This document shows positions 12,940 to 24,745 of a stretch of DNA of 38,310 nt, in pieces. Under the pieces are notes generated by a model. That model did not search any database. It was not told the DNA's origin and saw nothing but the letters and a program-made list of their open reading frames with translations. Each line of letters opens with the position of its first letter. The first letter of the stretch is position 1. This DNA comes from a virus, in IMG/VR virus record IMGVR_UViG_3300025131_000148, positions 1-38,310 of that record, one strand, 5' to 3'. Made by a program: the position numbers and the translations under genes.

Positions 12940-13794
12940 CTACCACCCCAAGGAAAATGAATTAACATCATTAATCAAATCCTTCACATTAACATCAACA
13001 TAAATATCCATAGTGATATTAACGGATGAATGTCCTAATATTTTACTTAAGTGAACTATATTACCACCGTTCTTAATGTAGTGGGTAGCAAATGTATGTC
13101 TGAAGTCATGAAACCTAATGGGTTCTAAACCTAGTTCTTTACAGTCTCTTCTCAAGTAATGATTAGTAAAATTATTAACATCTATATCCCATATCAAATC
13201 ATGACTACCAGGGATCAAGATAGACTCGATAATCTTCATGCATTCCTTAGTAATAGGTACTTTACGCATTTTCGATGACTTAGTACTACCTATATTATCA
13301 CCTGATTTCGTACCTCTAACCAGTATGTAAAACTCGCTCTTAGACACGTCTATATGCCTCATAGAAGCGATTTCTCCTAAACGCATACCAGTGTATAGGG
13401 CAACTAGATAGAAGGGCTTAAAATGGACGTGAGACCCCTTAAAACGCATAATTTGATGCAGGTCTAAAGGTCTAATTTCTCTTTTATCTCCTTTAATGAA
13501 TTTTAAACTAGTTAGAGGGTTATCTTCTAGATACTTTAATTCTACTGCTTTATTGATTAATATCTTAAAACAGTTTAGAATCTTATTAATTGTAGAAAAG
13601 CCTAAATCCCTGGCTTTAAGATTCATCCTGAAGTCTACCCCATCCTTGTAAGTTAAACTGGTGAGAAGTTTTGTACCAAGCAAGGGGTTAATGTGGTTGA
13701 AGCATATAGAGCTATAGCTTCTGATGGTCGAGGATTTGCATTCTAATGCAACTATATTATCTAACCAAAATTGAGTAAATTGATTAATCTTCAT
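12940..13794 (-). CDS. int: Tyrosine recombinase / phage integrase
   Basis: 284 aa. Residues 1-100 are a SAM-like core-binding domain (Phage_int_SAM type); 105-284 are the catalytic domain with Arg138 (YTGMRLGE), a Lys near 173-179, HDFRH (His229, Arg232), GHSS (His255) and Tyr265 (MDIYVDV). All catalytic residues are present. No extra arm-binding domain is obvious, so it is a compact integrase. It overlaps the PhaR-like gene by 4 nt. This makes the phage probably temperate. The best attP candidate by position is the non-coding block 14052-14178. Confidence 0.9.
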   Translation of the reverse strand: MKINQFTQFWLDNIVALECKSSTIRSYSSICFNHINPLLGTKLLTSLTYKDGVDFRMNLKARDLGFSTINKILNCFKILINKAVELKYLEDNPLTSLKFIKGDKREIRPLDLHQIMRFKGSHVHFKPFYLVALYTGMRLGEIASMRHIDVSKSEFYILVRGTKSGDNIGSTKSSKMRKVPITKECMKIIESILIPGSHDLIWDIDVNNFTNHYLRRDCKELGLEPIRFHDFRHTFATHYIKNGGNIVHLSKILGHSSVNITMDIYVDVNVKDLINDVNSFSLGW

Positions 13795-14051
13795 TCATTA
13801 ACCTTTATACAGTTTTCAATCAAATATAATAATGTTTGTTCTACTTCATCTCTATTAACTATTTTACCTGCTTTAAGTAATACTTGAGTAAGTGTCTCAA
13901 TAGTAATATCTACACCATCAGTATCACGTTTAACTAGTATGTCATGATCATCTTGTATTCTAAGAGCTAAGTCTTTGAGTGTGATATAACCCTTACCAGT
14001 TAAGTCATATAGTTTACGGTTACACATGAATTTCTTTATCTTTAATTTCAT
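13791..14051 (-). CDS. PhaR-type (PHB_acc_N) DNA-binding protein
   Basis: 86 aa. Residues about 5-60 match the DNA-binding domain of polyhydroxyalkanoate regulators PhaR: KKF...NRKLYDLTGKGYITLKDLAL, then DGVDITIETLTQVLLK, parallel to the family pattern N-R-x-L-Y-D-T...Y-I-T-L-x-D-L-A...G-x-D-[IL]-T...L. PhaR has an extra C-terminal PHA-binding region; this protein stops after about 25 more residues. A clear AGGA site precedes the ATG. Overlap with int suggests it is a recombination-directionality factor or a regulator of lysogeny, rather than of PHA storage. Confidence 0.7.
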   Translation of the reverse strand: MKLKIKKFMCNRKLYDLTGKGYITLKDLALRIQDDHDILVKRDTDGVDITIETLTQVLLKAGKIVNRDEVEQTLLYLIENCIKVNE

Positions 14052-14059
14052 AATATCCT

Positions 14060-14139
14060 AAAAAAGAGAAGGGTATAGCTTATAAGTTCACGTAACTTTA
14101 CTATTCCTAGAATAACGTGGTTTCTAGTCAACCCCTTCT
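14060..14139 (-). ncRNA. Structured leader: three-way junction with complementary loops, then U6
   Basis: On the minus strand AGAAGGG (14139-14133) pairs with CCCTTCT (14073-14067). Inside are two hairpins: CTAGAA/TTCTAG (stem 107-112 with 122-127 of 14xxx, 9-nt loop) and ATAG...CTAT enclosing AAGTT/AACTT (5-nt loop). The loops hold CACGT and ACGTG, a perfect 5-bp loop-loop match. The closing stem is followed by C and six U, then the AGGA site of the PhaR-like gene. The arrangement looks like a riboswitch or attenuator. Alternative: DNA sites for the integrase, since CTAGAA-9 bp-TTCTAG resembles a recombinase core. Confidence 0.55.
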
Positions 14140-14178
14140 TAAATAATCCCTCACAACACGTAGGAAGCTTCAACAGGA

Positions 14179-16440
14179 TTAAATTATTTCTTCTAATAAT
14201 TCTTTATTGTTCTTAAGAGTATAGTCTGGAATAATTCCAATGTCAAGAATATTCTCAAATATCTTTAAAGATTTATAAAGTCTTGACACATAATGCATTG
14301 GATCATGATCACCAGTATAATTCTCTTCTAATGTAAGAGTACCTTCATTATTTCTGTATAAATATACTTTATCTTCTAAATTAATAATCTTATCTTTACA
14401 AGCATTCCTAACATCTAAAGCTATCTTATCTTGATTCTCTAATACAGCCTTAGTAATAGTCTTTTTAACACACCAAGGAGTAATAGGTTCTTCTTTAGTA
14501 CCTATCTTGAATACTCTCCTAAGATACTTATGGTATAAATGAAACACTTGATCTTGTTTCTTCTTTAAGAATAATCCTAGTATTTCCTTCTTAAACTCCA
14601 TGCATATCTTCTCTACTTTTTGATCTTTAATAGATGACCCTTTAAATACAAACTTCTTACCATCTTCAGTATATGCATAGTTCTTAGTCTTTAAAACTAT
14701 TTCTCTTTTAATCCTACCCATATCCTTAGTATCAAATTCCCAATTGATTAAAGGACCAAAATCTTCATGTACTGCTTCTTGTATTTCATCTAATAGTTCT
14801 TGACACTCTTCATCAGTAAACTTCTTACCATTAGGTTTACAAAAACTAGTACTATCAGTATCAGCATTTACAATATTAAAGTAATCCTTTTTCTCTGAAG
14901 CATCTACAGTATATCTATATTGTACTGTTTGTTCACTATCTAAATAGAATTCACCACCAGTAAATATATCAGTAGCATGATTTAATATATCTCTACCATG
15001 TTCTGTTACTTTAGATGCATGATACATACTATTAAAATGTAATCCTGGTGCACCTAAGAAACCATAGAAGCTATTAATAACAATCTTCTGTGCTGATTGT
15101 AATGCATCATAGTAAGGATCATCAGTTTCTTTAAATATTTTCTTATTCTTTAATCTTTCATCAGTAAATATATTAATGAAGATCAACATTTGTTTTAATG
15201 GGTCTTTTTCAGGACTATATATCTCAAAATGTCTCATAATAGATGGGTAAAGACTAGCAACATCTATCTTAAATACATTATCGTATATTCCAGGTTTACC
15301 ATAAGAAAATGCACCTTGAAAATTCTCTTTATCATCCGGTGCTGGTATAGAATGACCTTGTGATAAATACGTTCTAATCATTAAATTGTTTATCTGTGAA
15401 CCTGATGCAGATACTAGTACTTCACCAAATGTCTTAGGTATTGATCTAGTAAGGTAGAAGTAAGCAGGGCACATAAGATCAAATAAAGCTAATGCATCAT
15501 CGCCATCATCAGTACAGTACTTCTTAATCTTCTCACGTTCTTCAGGTATATGCCAATTCTGACCAATCAATGCAGCATCATAGAATATTCTACCTTTCTT
15601 AACTAAACCTTCAACTTCTATGATATGTTTCAATCTAAAGTTTTCATACTTCTTAGGTACTGCGTCATAGTCCATAGCTAAAAACCATGTATCTACTAAC
15701 TCTCTACCAAATATCTTTAGTTTTGGATATGCTATAGACCTTGAACCATCAAATCTTTTTTGTGAAGGTCTTTTAGGTTCTATAATAGCCGAACCATCTC
15801 TACCTAAACGAATACTAGCTTTATACTTAGTTTTCATTACATGGATCATATAAGGTAAATCATAAGTATAAATATTATGTCCACACATAAATGTTGGGTT
15901 CATATCTCTTACCCAAGCACTCCAGCAATCAATCATATCTTCTGAATTTTTAAATTCATCTAAACTAAATCTTTTCTTAGTTATTTTACCATTCTTTCTA
16001 AGAGTATTAGCTATACAGAATACTTCTGAATCATCATCAAATCTTAAACTAGCAGCTTCTATATCAAAACCTAGTACAGATACATCTTTAGGAGCTAACC
16101 CTTTAAACATGGTGAATCCATCTCTAAGTATAGCCATTTCTTTTAAATTATAAGGATACCAATACTGATCACGCTTTTTAAATATTTGTTTAGTTTTCTC
16201 TTTAAATTCTTCATGTGAATCAGTTTTCCAAACATGATCAAAGAATAGATCACCTTTTAACTTATCCATGTTGGAATGACCTATAGCTGATAGTATCCAG
16301 TAGTCCATAGGATACTCTTCAATTTCTACTTTACCATTTATTTCTTTAAAGAGTATTACATTATCATCTTTAACTTCTACTGATACTATGTGTTCAGTAG
16401 AATCATGACCATAAAGTAATTCTTCATTAGTTAACTTCAA
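14179..16440 (-). CDS. Family B DNA polymerase with proofreading exonuclease
   Basis: 753 aa. Exonuclease motifs: ExoI FDIEA (Asp126, Glu128), ExoII GHNIYTYDLPYM (Asp194), ExoIII YCTDDGDDAL (Tyr308, Asp312). Polymerase motifs: A DVASLYPSI (Asp393), B KIVINSFYGFLG (Lys452-Gly460), C NADTDST (Asp527, Asp529). All catalytic residues are present. No TPR insertions typical of protein-primed enzymes are evident, so RNA-primed synthesis with the primase and helicase upstream is likely. The start is TTG with a strong GGAGGGAG site; no in-frame ATG lies nearby. A tRNA-like fold sits just upstream. Confidence 0.95.
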   Translation of the reverse strand: MKLTNEELLYGHDSTEHIVSVEVKDDNVILFKEINGKVEIEEYPMDYWILSAIGHSNMDKLKGDLFFDHVWKTDSHEEFKEKTKQIFKKRDQYWYPYNLKEMAILRDGFTMFKGLAPKDVSVLGFDIEAASLRFDDDSEVFCIANTLRKNGKITKKRFSLDEFKNSEDMIDCWSAWVRDMNPTFMCGHNIYTYDLPYMIHVMKTKYKASIRLGRDGSAIIEPKRPSQKRFDGSRSIAYPKLKIFGRELVDTWFLAMDYDAVPKKYENFRLKHIIEVEGLVKKGRIFYDAALIGQNWHIPEEREKIKKYCTDDGDDALALFDLMCPAYFYLTRSIPKTFGEVLVSASGSQINNLMIRTYLSQGHSIPAPDDKENFQGAFSYGKPGIYDNVFKIDVASLYPSIMRHFEIYSPEKDPLKQMLIFINIFTDERLKNKKIFKETDDPYYDALQSAQKIVINSFYGFLGAPGLHFNSMYHASKVTEHGRDILNHATDIFTGGEFYLDSEQTVQYRYTVDASEKKDYFNIVNADTDSTSFCKPNGKKFTDEECQELLDEIQEAVHEDFGPLINWEFDTKDMGRIKREIVLKTKNYAYTEDGKKFVFKGSSIKDQKVEKICMEFKKEILGLFLKKKQDQVFHLYHKYLRRVFKIGTKEEPITPWCVKKTITKAVLENQDKIALDVRNACKDKIINLEDKVYLYRNNEGTLTLEENYTGDHDPMHYVSRLYKSLKIFENILDIGIIPDYTLKNNKELLEEII

Positions 16441-16462: not shown

Positions 16463-16549
16463 TCGGTGTGGTGGGATTTTAACCCACGCTCTCTACTGTT
16501 CTGTTTTTATAGCCTAGGCGTAGCGACTTAAACACTTGTCCACACACCG
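16463..16549 (-). tRNA. tRNA-like element with abnormal anticodon region
   Basis: Minus strand: acceptor stem CGGTGTG/CACACCG (7 bp, perfect) with discriminator A, TG linker, D-arm GAC-10 nt-GTC, stem CTAC/GTAG, five-nt variable region AGAGC, and T-arm GTGGG-TTAAAAT-CCCAC (5 bp, 7-nt loop). The anticodon hairpin has a 23-nt loop instead of 7, so no anticodon can be assigned. The D-loop lacks the GG pair and the T-loop has A where C56 belongs, losing the usual elbow contact. No CCA follows (CCT). It may be a decayed tRNA, a tRNA mimic or a processing signal between the nuclease and polymerase genes. Confidence 0.5.
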
Positions 16550-22748: not shown

Positions 22749-22929
22749 TTTTTCTTATCCTAGTATTAATAATTTCTGGATTGATAGTATTAAATCTAGG
22801 TTGTTTAATAGGTATACGTAATATCTTATTCTTAATACTGATAGTATCACCTATCTTTTTATCTTTACATACTTGTACAAAATCATGATGTTTATTTATT
22901 TTATTATTTCTCAAAATAATATTTCTCAA
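22735..22929 (-). CDS. Hypothetical small protein, probable TTG start
   Basis: No ATG fits this frame. A TTG at 22929 has AAGG six bases upstream and overlaps the preceding gene by 26 nt; a second TTG lies at 22914. It encodes about 64 residues, basic, with KIGDTISIKNKILRI in the middle suggesting a small beta barrel. The start region is a perfect 15-bp tandem repeat. Confidence 0.4.
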   Translation of the reverse strand: MRNIILRNNKINKHHDFVQVCKDKKIGDTISIKNKILRIPIKQPRFNTINPEIINTRIRKNGKK

Positions 22930-24745
22930 AATAATCCTTTGATATAGTCCATTCACCAAATATATTATTTATCAATTGTCTACTACCATTAGGGAATTCT
23001 AATAAGCATGTTTGCATCCAAGTACTAGCACCTTCTAGATAACCAATCTTATCAGCATCTAAATAACTACATGTACCTACTCTAAATACATCCCTCCAAA
23101 TACCAGGAGAGTGACTATGACCAGCATTACATGGACCATAAGCTTTTTCTAAAGCAGGTAAACCGGGACTACGTGAACCATTAAGACCTAAATGACCATG
23201 AACACCATTTTCTATTCTACCTGATGGCTTAAAAGAATCAGTTAACTTAAGCCATATAATTTTATCAGCATTATCTATACCAATATACTTTTCAAAAGCC
23301 CATTGTATAGCATTCCAACCATCCATTACTTTATCAGCTAATTTAAGAGCTAAATGAAAGTTTTCTGCTTCATCTACAAATCTACAAAATTCTAAATATT
23401 GATATAAGAAATGATCATGATTACCATAAATATATACAATTCCTTCTGTATCCCAACTAAGAAGTTCTTCCATTTCTTCAGCACAAGCTATAATTTCATC
23501 ACTAAGAGATAATAAACCTTGAGAAGCCTTTTTAGCCTTAGTTATACTTTTACCTCTATCATGATAAGAAATAGATGTACCATTAAAGAAATCTTCTACA
23601 GATAGATATTTAGGAGATGTAAGATTACATATTTCTTTAAATACACCTTTAGCTACTGGATCAGTTTCAGTAACATGATAATCAGGTAATCTTAATAATA
23701 CTGGTTTTACTTCATCAATTTTACCAGAAGCATGATACTTTTTGTTAATATCACAGAATGCGCCCGTTTTAGGTTCTGCTTGAATTTGTCTGAAATGAAA
23801 TACTTTATTATCTTTAACTTCAACTATTATAGCTCCTAGACAATGATCATGTGTTGCTATATATCCTAGTCTTTCAGACATATACCTTTCTGTTCTATAT
23901 TGTGGTTCTGTTATAGCACCAGTAGTCATTAATGCATGAGTCATTTGTTTATTATTACCTTGAGTAACATGTTCTAGAAATTGTTTAGGTGAAGCTAATA
24001 TCATACTACCTTCACGTTGAGCTATTCTAGATAATCCTGTTAATGGTAATAATTGTTTTGCTTGTAATTTAATAGTTGAAAGAAATAGATTATCATTTAA
24101 CTTAAGGTCTTTAAATACTATATTTTCATCTCTTAAACAATCATCTAAACGCCATTTCTTATTAGTATCACTCATTCTAGCAGGATCACTACAAGGTAAT
24201 ATCATAAGTTCTGCATTTCTATCATCACAATAAGTTCTAATAGCTTTATAAAATCCTTTATGGATATCACAACCTGTAACTGCTGTAGTTATAATAAATA
24301 TATTAGTACTTTTAGCTGTTTTTTTAAGTTCTTTAAATTCTTTAGATGTAAATAATGTTTCATCAAGTATATGTTCAAAGGCTTCTGGATGTTCTTTTCT
24401 TAATAATTGTTCAAATTTAACTATACCACCATACCAATCTTGAATACTAAAACCATTCTTAATCTTAGTAAATTCATGTTTAGTTGGCATTCTAGAATTC
24501 TTTTTAATAAATAAACAAGTATCTTCTATTAATTTTAATTTAGCTTCTTTATGTTTTTTATCTTTATCCATTGCAGATAAATCATAATCATTTTTATATC
24601 TATTAATTGTATTAGATACAGCATTATTAGTTAATAATATATGAAATTTACCATTAAATTTATTTCTTATTTCTGATATAGTAAAATTATTAGCATACCA
24701 TTCCATTATCCAATCAATTTGTTTTTCTGTGTAATTATGTGCCAT
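22904..24745 (-). CDS. Calcineurin-like metallophosphoesterase with N-terminal helix-turn-helix
   Basis: 613 aa. Residues about 5-55 look like a helix-turn-helix (TISEIRNKF, NNAVSNTINRY). The middle (about 145-330) has KSTNIFIITTAVTGCDIHKG and TTGAITEPQYRTERYM. The C-terminal third carries phosphoesterase motifs GNHDHF, VHGHLGLNG and NAGHSHSPG, typical of two-metal Mre11/calcineurin enzymes. The layout resembles my recollection of T5 A1-type proteins, which act in early DNA transfer and host DNA breakdown; this is inference. It probably cuts DNA or a nucleotide. Confidence 0.65.
   Translation of the reverse strand: MAHNYTEKQIDWIMEWYANNFTISEIRNKFNGKFHILLTNNAVSNTINRYKNDYDLSAMDKDKKHKEAKLKLIEDTCLFIKKNSRMPTKHEFTKIKNGFSIQDWYGGIVKFEQLLRKEHPEAFEHILDETLFTSKEFKELKKTAKSTNIFIITTAVTGCDIHKGFYKAIRTYCDDRNAELMILPCSDPARMSDTNKKWRLDDCLRDENIVFKDLKLNDNLFLSTIKLQAKQLLPLTGLSRIAQREGSMILASPKQFLEHVTQGNNKQMTHALMTTGAITEPQYRTERYMSERLGYIATHDHCLGAIIVEVKDNKVFHFRQIQAEPKTGAFCDINKKYHASGKIDEVKPVLLRLPDYHVTETDPVAKGVFKEICNLTSPKYLSVEDFFNGTSISYHDRGKSITKAKKASQGLLSLSDEIIACAEEMEELLSWDTEGIVYIYGNHDHFLYQYLEFCRFVDEAENFHLALKLADKVMDGWNAIQWAFEKYIGIDNADKIIWLKLTDSFKPSGRIENGVHGHLGLNGSRSPGLPALEKAYGPCNAGHSHSPGIWRDVFRVGTCSYLDADKIGYLEGASTWMQTCLLEFPNGSRQLINNIFGEWTISKDYFEKYYFEK
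22905..22934. repeat. Perfect 15-bp tandem duplication
   Basis: TATTTCTCAAAATAA occurs twice in a row, without mismatch, in the overlap between the phosphoesterase 3' end and the next gene's start. It encodes a repeated YFEK in one frame and ILRN in the other. The length keeps both frames open. Confidence 0.75.

Follow-up and report, generated by a model that had tools for sequence, protein, structure and literature searches.

A candidate structured 5' leader upstream of a PHB_acc_N-domain and tyrosine integrase gene pair in a virus genome

Introduction

What role is played by the short gap that separates the DNA polymerase gene from a small regulator-like gene and a tyrosine integrase gene in a virus genome of the IMG/VR collection? 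The record was analysed as a whole (38,310 bases; G+C 29%), and this entire stretch of DNA is referred to as the window. RNA control of integrase is known in a few phages, sib retroregulation in lambda being one example. A first-pass annotation of the window had described the gap as a riboswitch-like leader in which a three-way junction with kissing loops is coupled to a terminator and a ribosome-binding site. The reading preferred here is that the gap is transcribed into a presumptive structured 5' untranslated leader, which would control the two-gene operon of the PHB_acc_N-domain protein and the tyrosine integrase; a probability of roughly 0.45 is assigned to this reading. If it is true, the decision to integrate would be set in a different way, by a folded 5' leader whose loops touch each other ahead of an integrase operon.

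Genomic context and transcription of the leader

Terminase, portal and head genes are located at the right of the window and tail-like genes at the left. The replication block is encoded on the minus strand and includes primase-like and helicase-like proteins and a family B DNA polymerase (14179-16440), whose stop codon borders the leader. On the same strand, the polymerase gene is followed by the leader (14052-14178, from the polymerase stop to the start of the next gene), the PHB_acc_N-domain gene, the tyrosine integrase gene and overlapping downstream genes. Two Clp-protease-fold proteins (PF00574; 11920-12666 and 9109-9840, minus strand) are encoded in the early-side block, distant from the head genes. 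The minus strand also carries a gene for a 613-aa protein (22904-24745) that resembles DNA transfer protein A1 of the T5 type (phrog_1745, E 9.5e-78); in other respects the 38-kb genome is not T5-like.

The first gene after the leader (13791-14051, minus strand) encodes a small protein of 86 aa with the DNA-binding domain of PHB/PHA accumulation regulators (PF07879, E 1.7e-11; 44.4, above the cut-off of 25). This domain is shared with the PhaR polyhydroxyalkanoate regulators (TIGR01848/PF07879), but the phage protein is very short and reaches only 29 bits against the PhaR equivalog model TIGR01848 (cut-off 109.45), and it is not an assigned PHA regulator. Comparison of the PHB_acc_N profile with solved structures gave no credible relative, the best matches being designed proteins, and the predicted structure of the protein (mean pLDDT 60.5, from 4 sequences) was too poor for use. 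The second gene (12940-13794, minus strand) encodes a tyrosine integrase of 284 aa (PF00589, E 1.1e-24; phrog_1). Alignments to solved integrases verified the presence of the catalytic residues and revealed no arm-binding domain; the score against a XerA-like model was below the cut-off. The stop of the PHB_acc_N gene and the start of the integrase gene overlap in the sequence ATGA, and the integrase gene's own ends overlap the neighbouring genes.

A small coding gene within the leader was considered and rejected. The only open reading frame of at least 20 aa, a 41-aa frame at 14048-14173 that extends without a stop to the ATGA of the following gene, has a codon score of -0.41. An equally low score is found in just 0.4% of 452 in-frame windows and an equally high one in 25% of 1356 off-frame windows; the frame thus scores like off-frame DNA. 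The 3' end of the polymerase gene contains a promoter-like site, TTGACA-N17-TATACT (14218-14246, minus strand; 11/12 consensus matches), which is located 40 bases ahead of the leader and is the best of 9 in the region 13700-14700. Since the whole window contains 3 sites this good against 3.85 expected in simulations (about 0.015 per 300 nt on a single strand), the match by itself does not prove a promoter; what makes the site an attractive candidate is where it lies and on which strand. Transcription from this site would start near 14211 and would provide a 5' UTR of approximately 160 nt for the PHB_acc_N and integrase genes. The earlier designation of the gap as a leader of these genes was upheld in that it is non-coding, directly precedes both genes and is probably served by a separate promoter. 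Within the spacer of the promoter-like site lies the near-palindrome GGAATTATTCC (14240-14224, minus strand), a possible operator that is at the same time polymerase coding sequence.

Structure of the leader

All stems and loops named in the first-pass annotation were located in the sequence, within a 73-nt domain on the minus strand (14067-14139). The closing stem P1 consists of 7 perfect base pairs between AGAAGGG (14133-14139) and CCCUUCU (CCCTTCT in the DNA; 14067-14073). It encloses the hairpin P2 (14107-14127), which reads CTAGAA-[ACCACGTTA]-TTCTAG in the DNA and CUAGAA-ACCACGUUA-UUCUAG in the RNA and has a perfect 6-bp stem, and the P3 arm AUAGU-A-AAGUU-[ACGUG]-AACUU-AUAA-GCUAU (14075-14104), in which an inner hairpin with 5 perfect base pairs (AAGTT-[ACGTG]-AACTT, 14084-14098) is extended by ATAGT/GCTAT. 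The loop elements CACGU in P2 (14115-14119) and ACGUG in P3 (14089-14093) are, as had been described for CACGT and ACGTG, perfectly complementary, and the palindrome ACGT is contained in both loops. A third ACGUG copy in the upstream part of the leader (14157-14161) is a possible competitor for the CACGU loop. P1 is followed by a C, a run of six U (14060-14065) and an AGGA motif (14056-14059) that is likely to be the ribosome-binding site of the PHB_acc_N gene. These three elements had been annotated correctly apart from their spacing: AGGA abuts the T-run instead of standing four nt further on, and the four-nt gap separates AGGA from the ATG (14051).

The three-way junction can be drawn as it had been described; the claim that the RNA simply folds in this way was not confirmed, and a nested fold ties with it. 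For the 73-nt domain, the energy minimum (-16.2 kcal/mol) is a nested fold in which CACGU and ACGUG form an ordinary helix; the three-way junction reaches -16.1 kcal/mol without any kissing energy, a gap of 0.1 kcal/mol. In the ensemble of the whole UTR, calculated with a model that cannot represent kissing loops, pair probabilities were 0.83-0.99 for P1, 0.14-0.20 for P2, 0.15-0.19 for P3 and 0.74-0.79 for the nested CACGU/ACGUG stem. The folding programs used cannot decide between the two forms because kissing loops are not scorable by them; the balance would tip towards the three-way junction if a 5-bp kiss came at a moderate cost. The combination of a 9-nt loop with a 5-nt loop, all five bases of which take part in the kiss, is tight and counts against kissing. 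In folding energy, both the domain (z -1.28, equalled or bettered by 23 of 200 shuffles) and the whole leader of 161 nt (z 0.31; 120 of 200) are ordinary.

A short AT-rich gap could also have acquired a pair of small inverted repeats and 7 matching base pairs by chance, unselected and merely resembling an RNA domain. Such an origin would be consistent with the ordinary energy and the tied fold, and the ACGT palindrome in both loops eases their complementarity. To assess how often chance yields the arrangement, a scan was employed that required a closing stem of 7 bp or more, two hairpins each with a perfect stem of 5 bp or more, and loops that match each other over 5 bases. The arrangement was found once in the window, at the leader, and in 1 of 240 block-shuffled genomes; none of the 240 contained it when one hairpin was required at 6 bp. 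The same scan detected no instance in 617,226 bases of real phage and MAG DNA from 79 loci, which remained of 104 after 25 duplicates of stretches already kept had been dropped. Given both hairpins, P1 has a p value of about 0.008 and the loop match one of about 0.006. All these figures flatter the leader, since the limits of the scan were set on the leader itself after the fact. Three-way junctions without a loop match are common (P1 of at least 6 bp; mean of 5.8 per shuffled genome and 4.0 per genome-length in the real loci), which again favours chance, while the scarcity of the full arrangement in shuffled and real DNA and its place in one of the few non-coding gaps, right before control genes, speak against it. 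The arrangement of stems and complementary loops is seldom given by chance; it is real, somewhat improbable and in a sensible place, and a purely accidental origin is judged to be somewhat unlikely.

Comparison with known RNA elements

Purine riboswitches are built from a closing stem, a three-way junction and two hairpins whose 7-nt loops are in contact. In the fold that can be drawn for it, the leader would resemble this family (RF00167) in its closing stem, three-way junction, two hairpins with complementary loops and presumed position in a 5' UTR. It differs in its short junctions (5, 2 and 1 nt) without the conserved core, in its loops, which measure 9 and 5 nt and match over 5 bp where the family has two 7-nt loops, and in its location upstream of phage control genes. 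A search of the region 13950-14300 returned no Rfam family at E values up to 10, in agreement with the earlier statement that the element is not a purine riboswitch by sequence. At the gathering score of Rfam 15, the whole window yielded only a tRNA elsewhere, and the leader was assigned to none of the RNA families tested. A tRNA match of 46.9 bits in Rfam is found between the nuclease and polymerase genes (16463-16549, minus strand); 23 nt lie between its anticodon stem strands versus 9 in the model, and ARAGORN made no call.

The C and six U that follow P1 raise the question of whether the domain ends the polymerase transcript as a large branched intrinsic terminator, or yields a stand-alone RNA of about 150 nt ending at the U-run. 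A scan for a G+C-rich hairpin with a short loop followed by a T-run detected no terminator-like site at 13700-14700, with a loop limit that excludes branched stems. Unlike usual terminators, the closing stem encloses 59 nt and its pairs beside the T-run are rich in A-U, and a ribosome-binding site directly follows the U-run. Such a terminator or small RNA is very improbable, and the terminator-like stem of the first-pass annotation was not retained. Positive evidence for ligand sensing was likewise not obtained, which leaves both the riboswitch and the terminator parts of the first reading unsupported.

A structured leader as a switch for the operon

According to the preferred reading of a structured 5' leader, transcription would start within the end of the polymerase gene and the nascent RNA would form P2 and P3, whose loops could kiss via CACGU and ACGUG. 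P1 would then close the domain beside the U-run and the ribosome-binding site. This closure would compete with an earlier pairing of the P1 5' strand (GGGG) with the upstream UCCU (14175-14178, minus strand); once P1 is closed, the freed UCCU would pair with AGGA, so that the ribosome-binding site could be switched between an open and a closed state. The leader would thereby set the amount of the DNA-binding protein and, through the ATGA overlap, that of the integrase. We infer the existence of the RNA, the kissing of its loops, and the direction and trigger of the switch.

Stepwise folding predicts this order of events: the 5' strand of P1 stays paired to UCCU upstream until CCCUUCU is made, after which P1 forms and UCCU pairs with AGGA (pair probability 0.89-0.92). 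Blocking the P1 3' strand raised the unpaired probability of AGGA from 0.05-0.07 to 0.18-0.42, and the mean openness of the initiation region barely moved (0.35 to 0.38). A special hiding of the ribosome-binding site was considered and not retained as evidence: AGGA is paired in the model, yet the initiation region (-14 to +3) is of average openness (0.49) and ranks 31st among 49 genes of the phage. The region is no more hidden than that of other genes. Owing to the average openness and the small mean change upon blocking of P1, the switch mechanism is to be regarded as a proposal and not as a result. A further-reaching version, in which the leader would belong to a new class of pseudoknotted three-way-junction RNA switches that pass a cue (a metabolite, a protein or the phage dose) on to the PhaR-like regulator and the integrase and thus help to decide between integration and lysis, is quite improbable.

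The leader as a DNA site

The block might instead act as DNA, either as attP, with CTAGAA-N9-TTCTAG as the crossover core, or as a binding region of the integrase or regulator, with AAGTTCACGTAACTT as the operator. Integration would then part the promoter from the PHB_acc_N and integrase genes, or the proteins would repress their own operon. No other non-coding gap lies closer to the integrase than the block, which is 257 bp from the intact gene with one small gene between. CACGT is present in 3 copies within 73 bp, compared to 35 when both strands of the whole 38-kb window are counted. Integrases without an arm-binding domain need only a short core site, and because the integrase appears to belong to this type, a short core in the block is possible. 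Several observations argue against a DNA site. The 21-bp core was absent as an exact match from genome_contigs, a set of one genome for each of 84,980 species outside which the host may lie. Imperfect palindromes like the core are nothing special in this AT-rich window (best score 8/11, with 536 scores of 8 or more), the leader contains no direct repeats resembling arm sites, and AAGTTCACGTAACTT and its dyad have no other copies in the window beyond chance. In addition, neither P1 nor the fit of the two loops is explained by attP or an operator. The search for the XerD half-site of dif gave 4 matches with one mismatch, fewer than expected by chance, and none of them in the leader. The DNA site is considered unlikely; if the block were attP, it would point to where an uncultured phage lineage integrates.

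In KplE1-type integrase control attL overlaps the intS promoter, and att regions that overlap integrase promoters are described as widespread (PMC2951348). The likeness to the present locus lies in a regulatory stretch directly upstream of the integrase with a possible role in recombination; the differences are that the leader also precedes the PHB_acc_N gene and that its candidate mechanism is RNA-based as opposed to protein binding. An RNA leader and attP could coexist, in which case the promoter and the operon would be separated upon integration.

Search for relatives of the leader

The structured leader proposed here was searched for in other genomes. No counterpart of the leader DNA was found among 50,697 phage and 72,556 plasmid records, and scans with the single PHB_acc_N, integrase and polymerase proteins gave no homologues. 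The titles and abstract beginnings listed in literature searches named no such RNA before a phage integrase. Polymerase alignments yielded 14 and 53 loci, plus 3 in genome_contigs, mostly at 33-47% identity. Neither the PHB_acc_N protein nor the integrase was found by tblastn in the 17 loci L002-L018, and the PHB_acc_N protein occurred near the polymerase in 1 of the 69 loci L002-L070 (L033). The integrase was detected in 4 of 45 records with a related polymerase, namely 2 of 43 virus records and both MAGs. The phages found to have a related polymerase appear to lack the module of leader, PHB_acc_N gene and integrase gene.

A covariance model of the 73-nt domain was built from one sequence, entered twice, and the following negatives are weak because such a single-sequence model has little power: nothing significant was obtained in 51 of 70 loci and the window, in all 45 records with a related polymerase, in 13 sources scanned without filters (L077 and L083 being excluded as a near copy and an overlap) or in 15 further-scanned loci, where the best score was 18 bits (E 0.041, L113). 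One of two patterns derived from the element had no match in the viral collections. The loose pattern GGTTGA-N6-ACCACGTTA matched 15 stretches, several of which are copies of each other; these are taken as chance matches since the 3' side complements the P2 5' strand in none of the 15. PHB_acc_N (PhaR-type) domains were observed in 8 of the 45 records with a related family B polymerase (G005, G008, G009, G021, G028, G033, G034 and G043), and G009 and G021 contain two such domains each.
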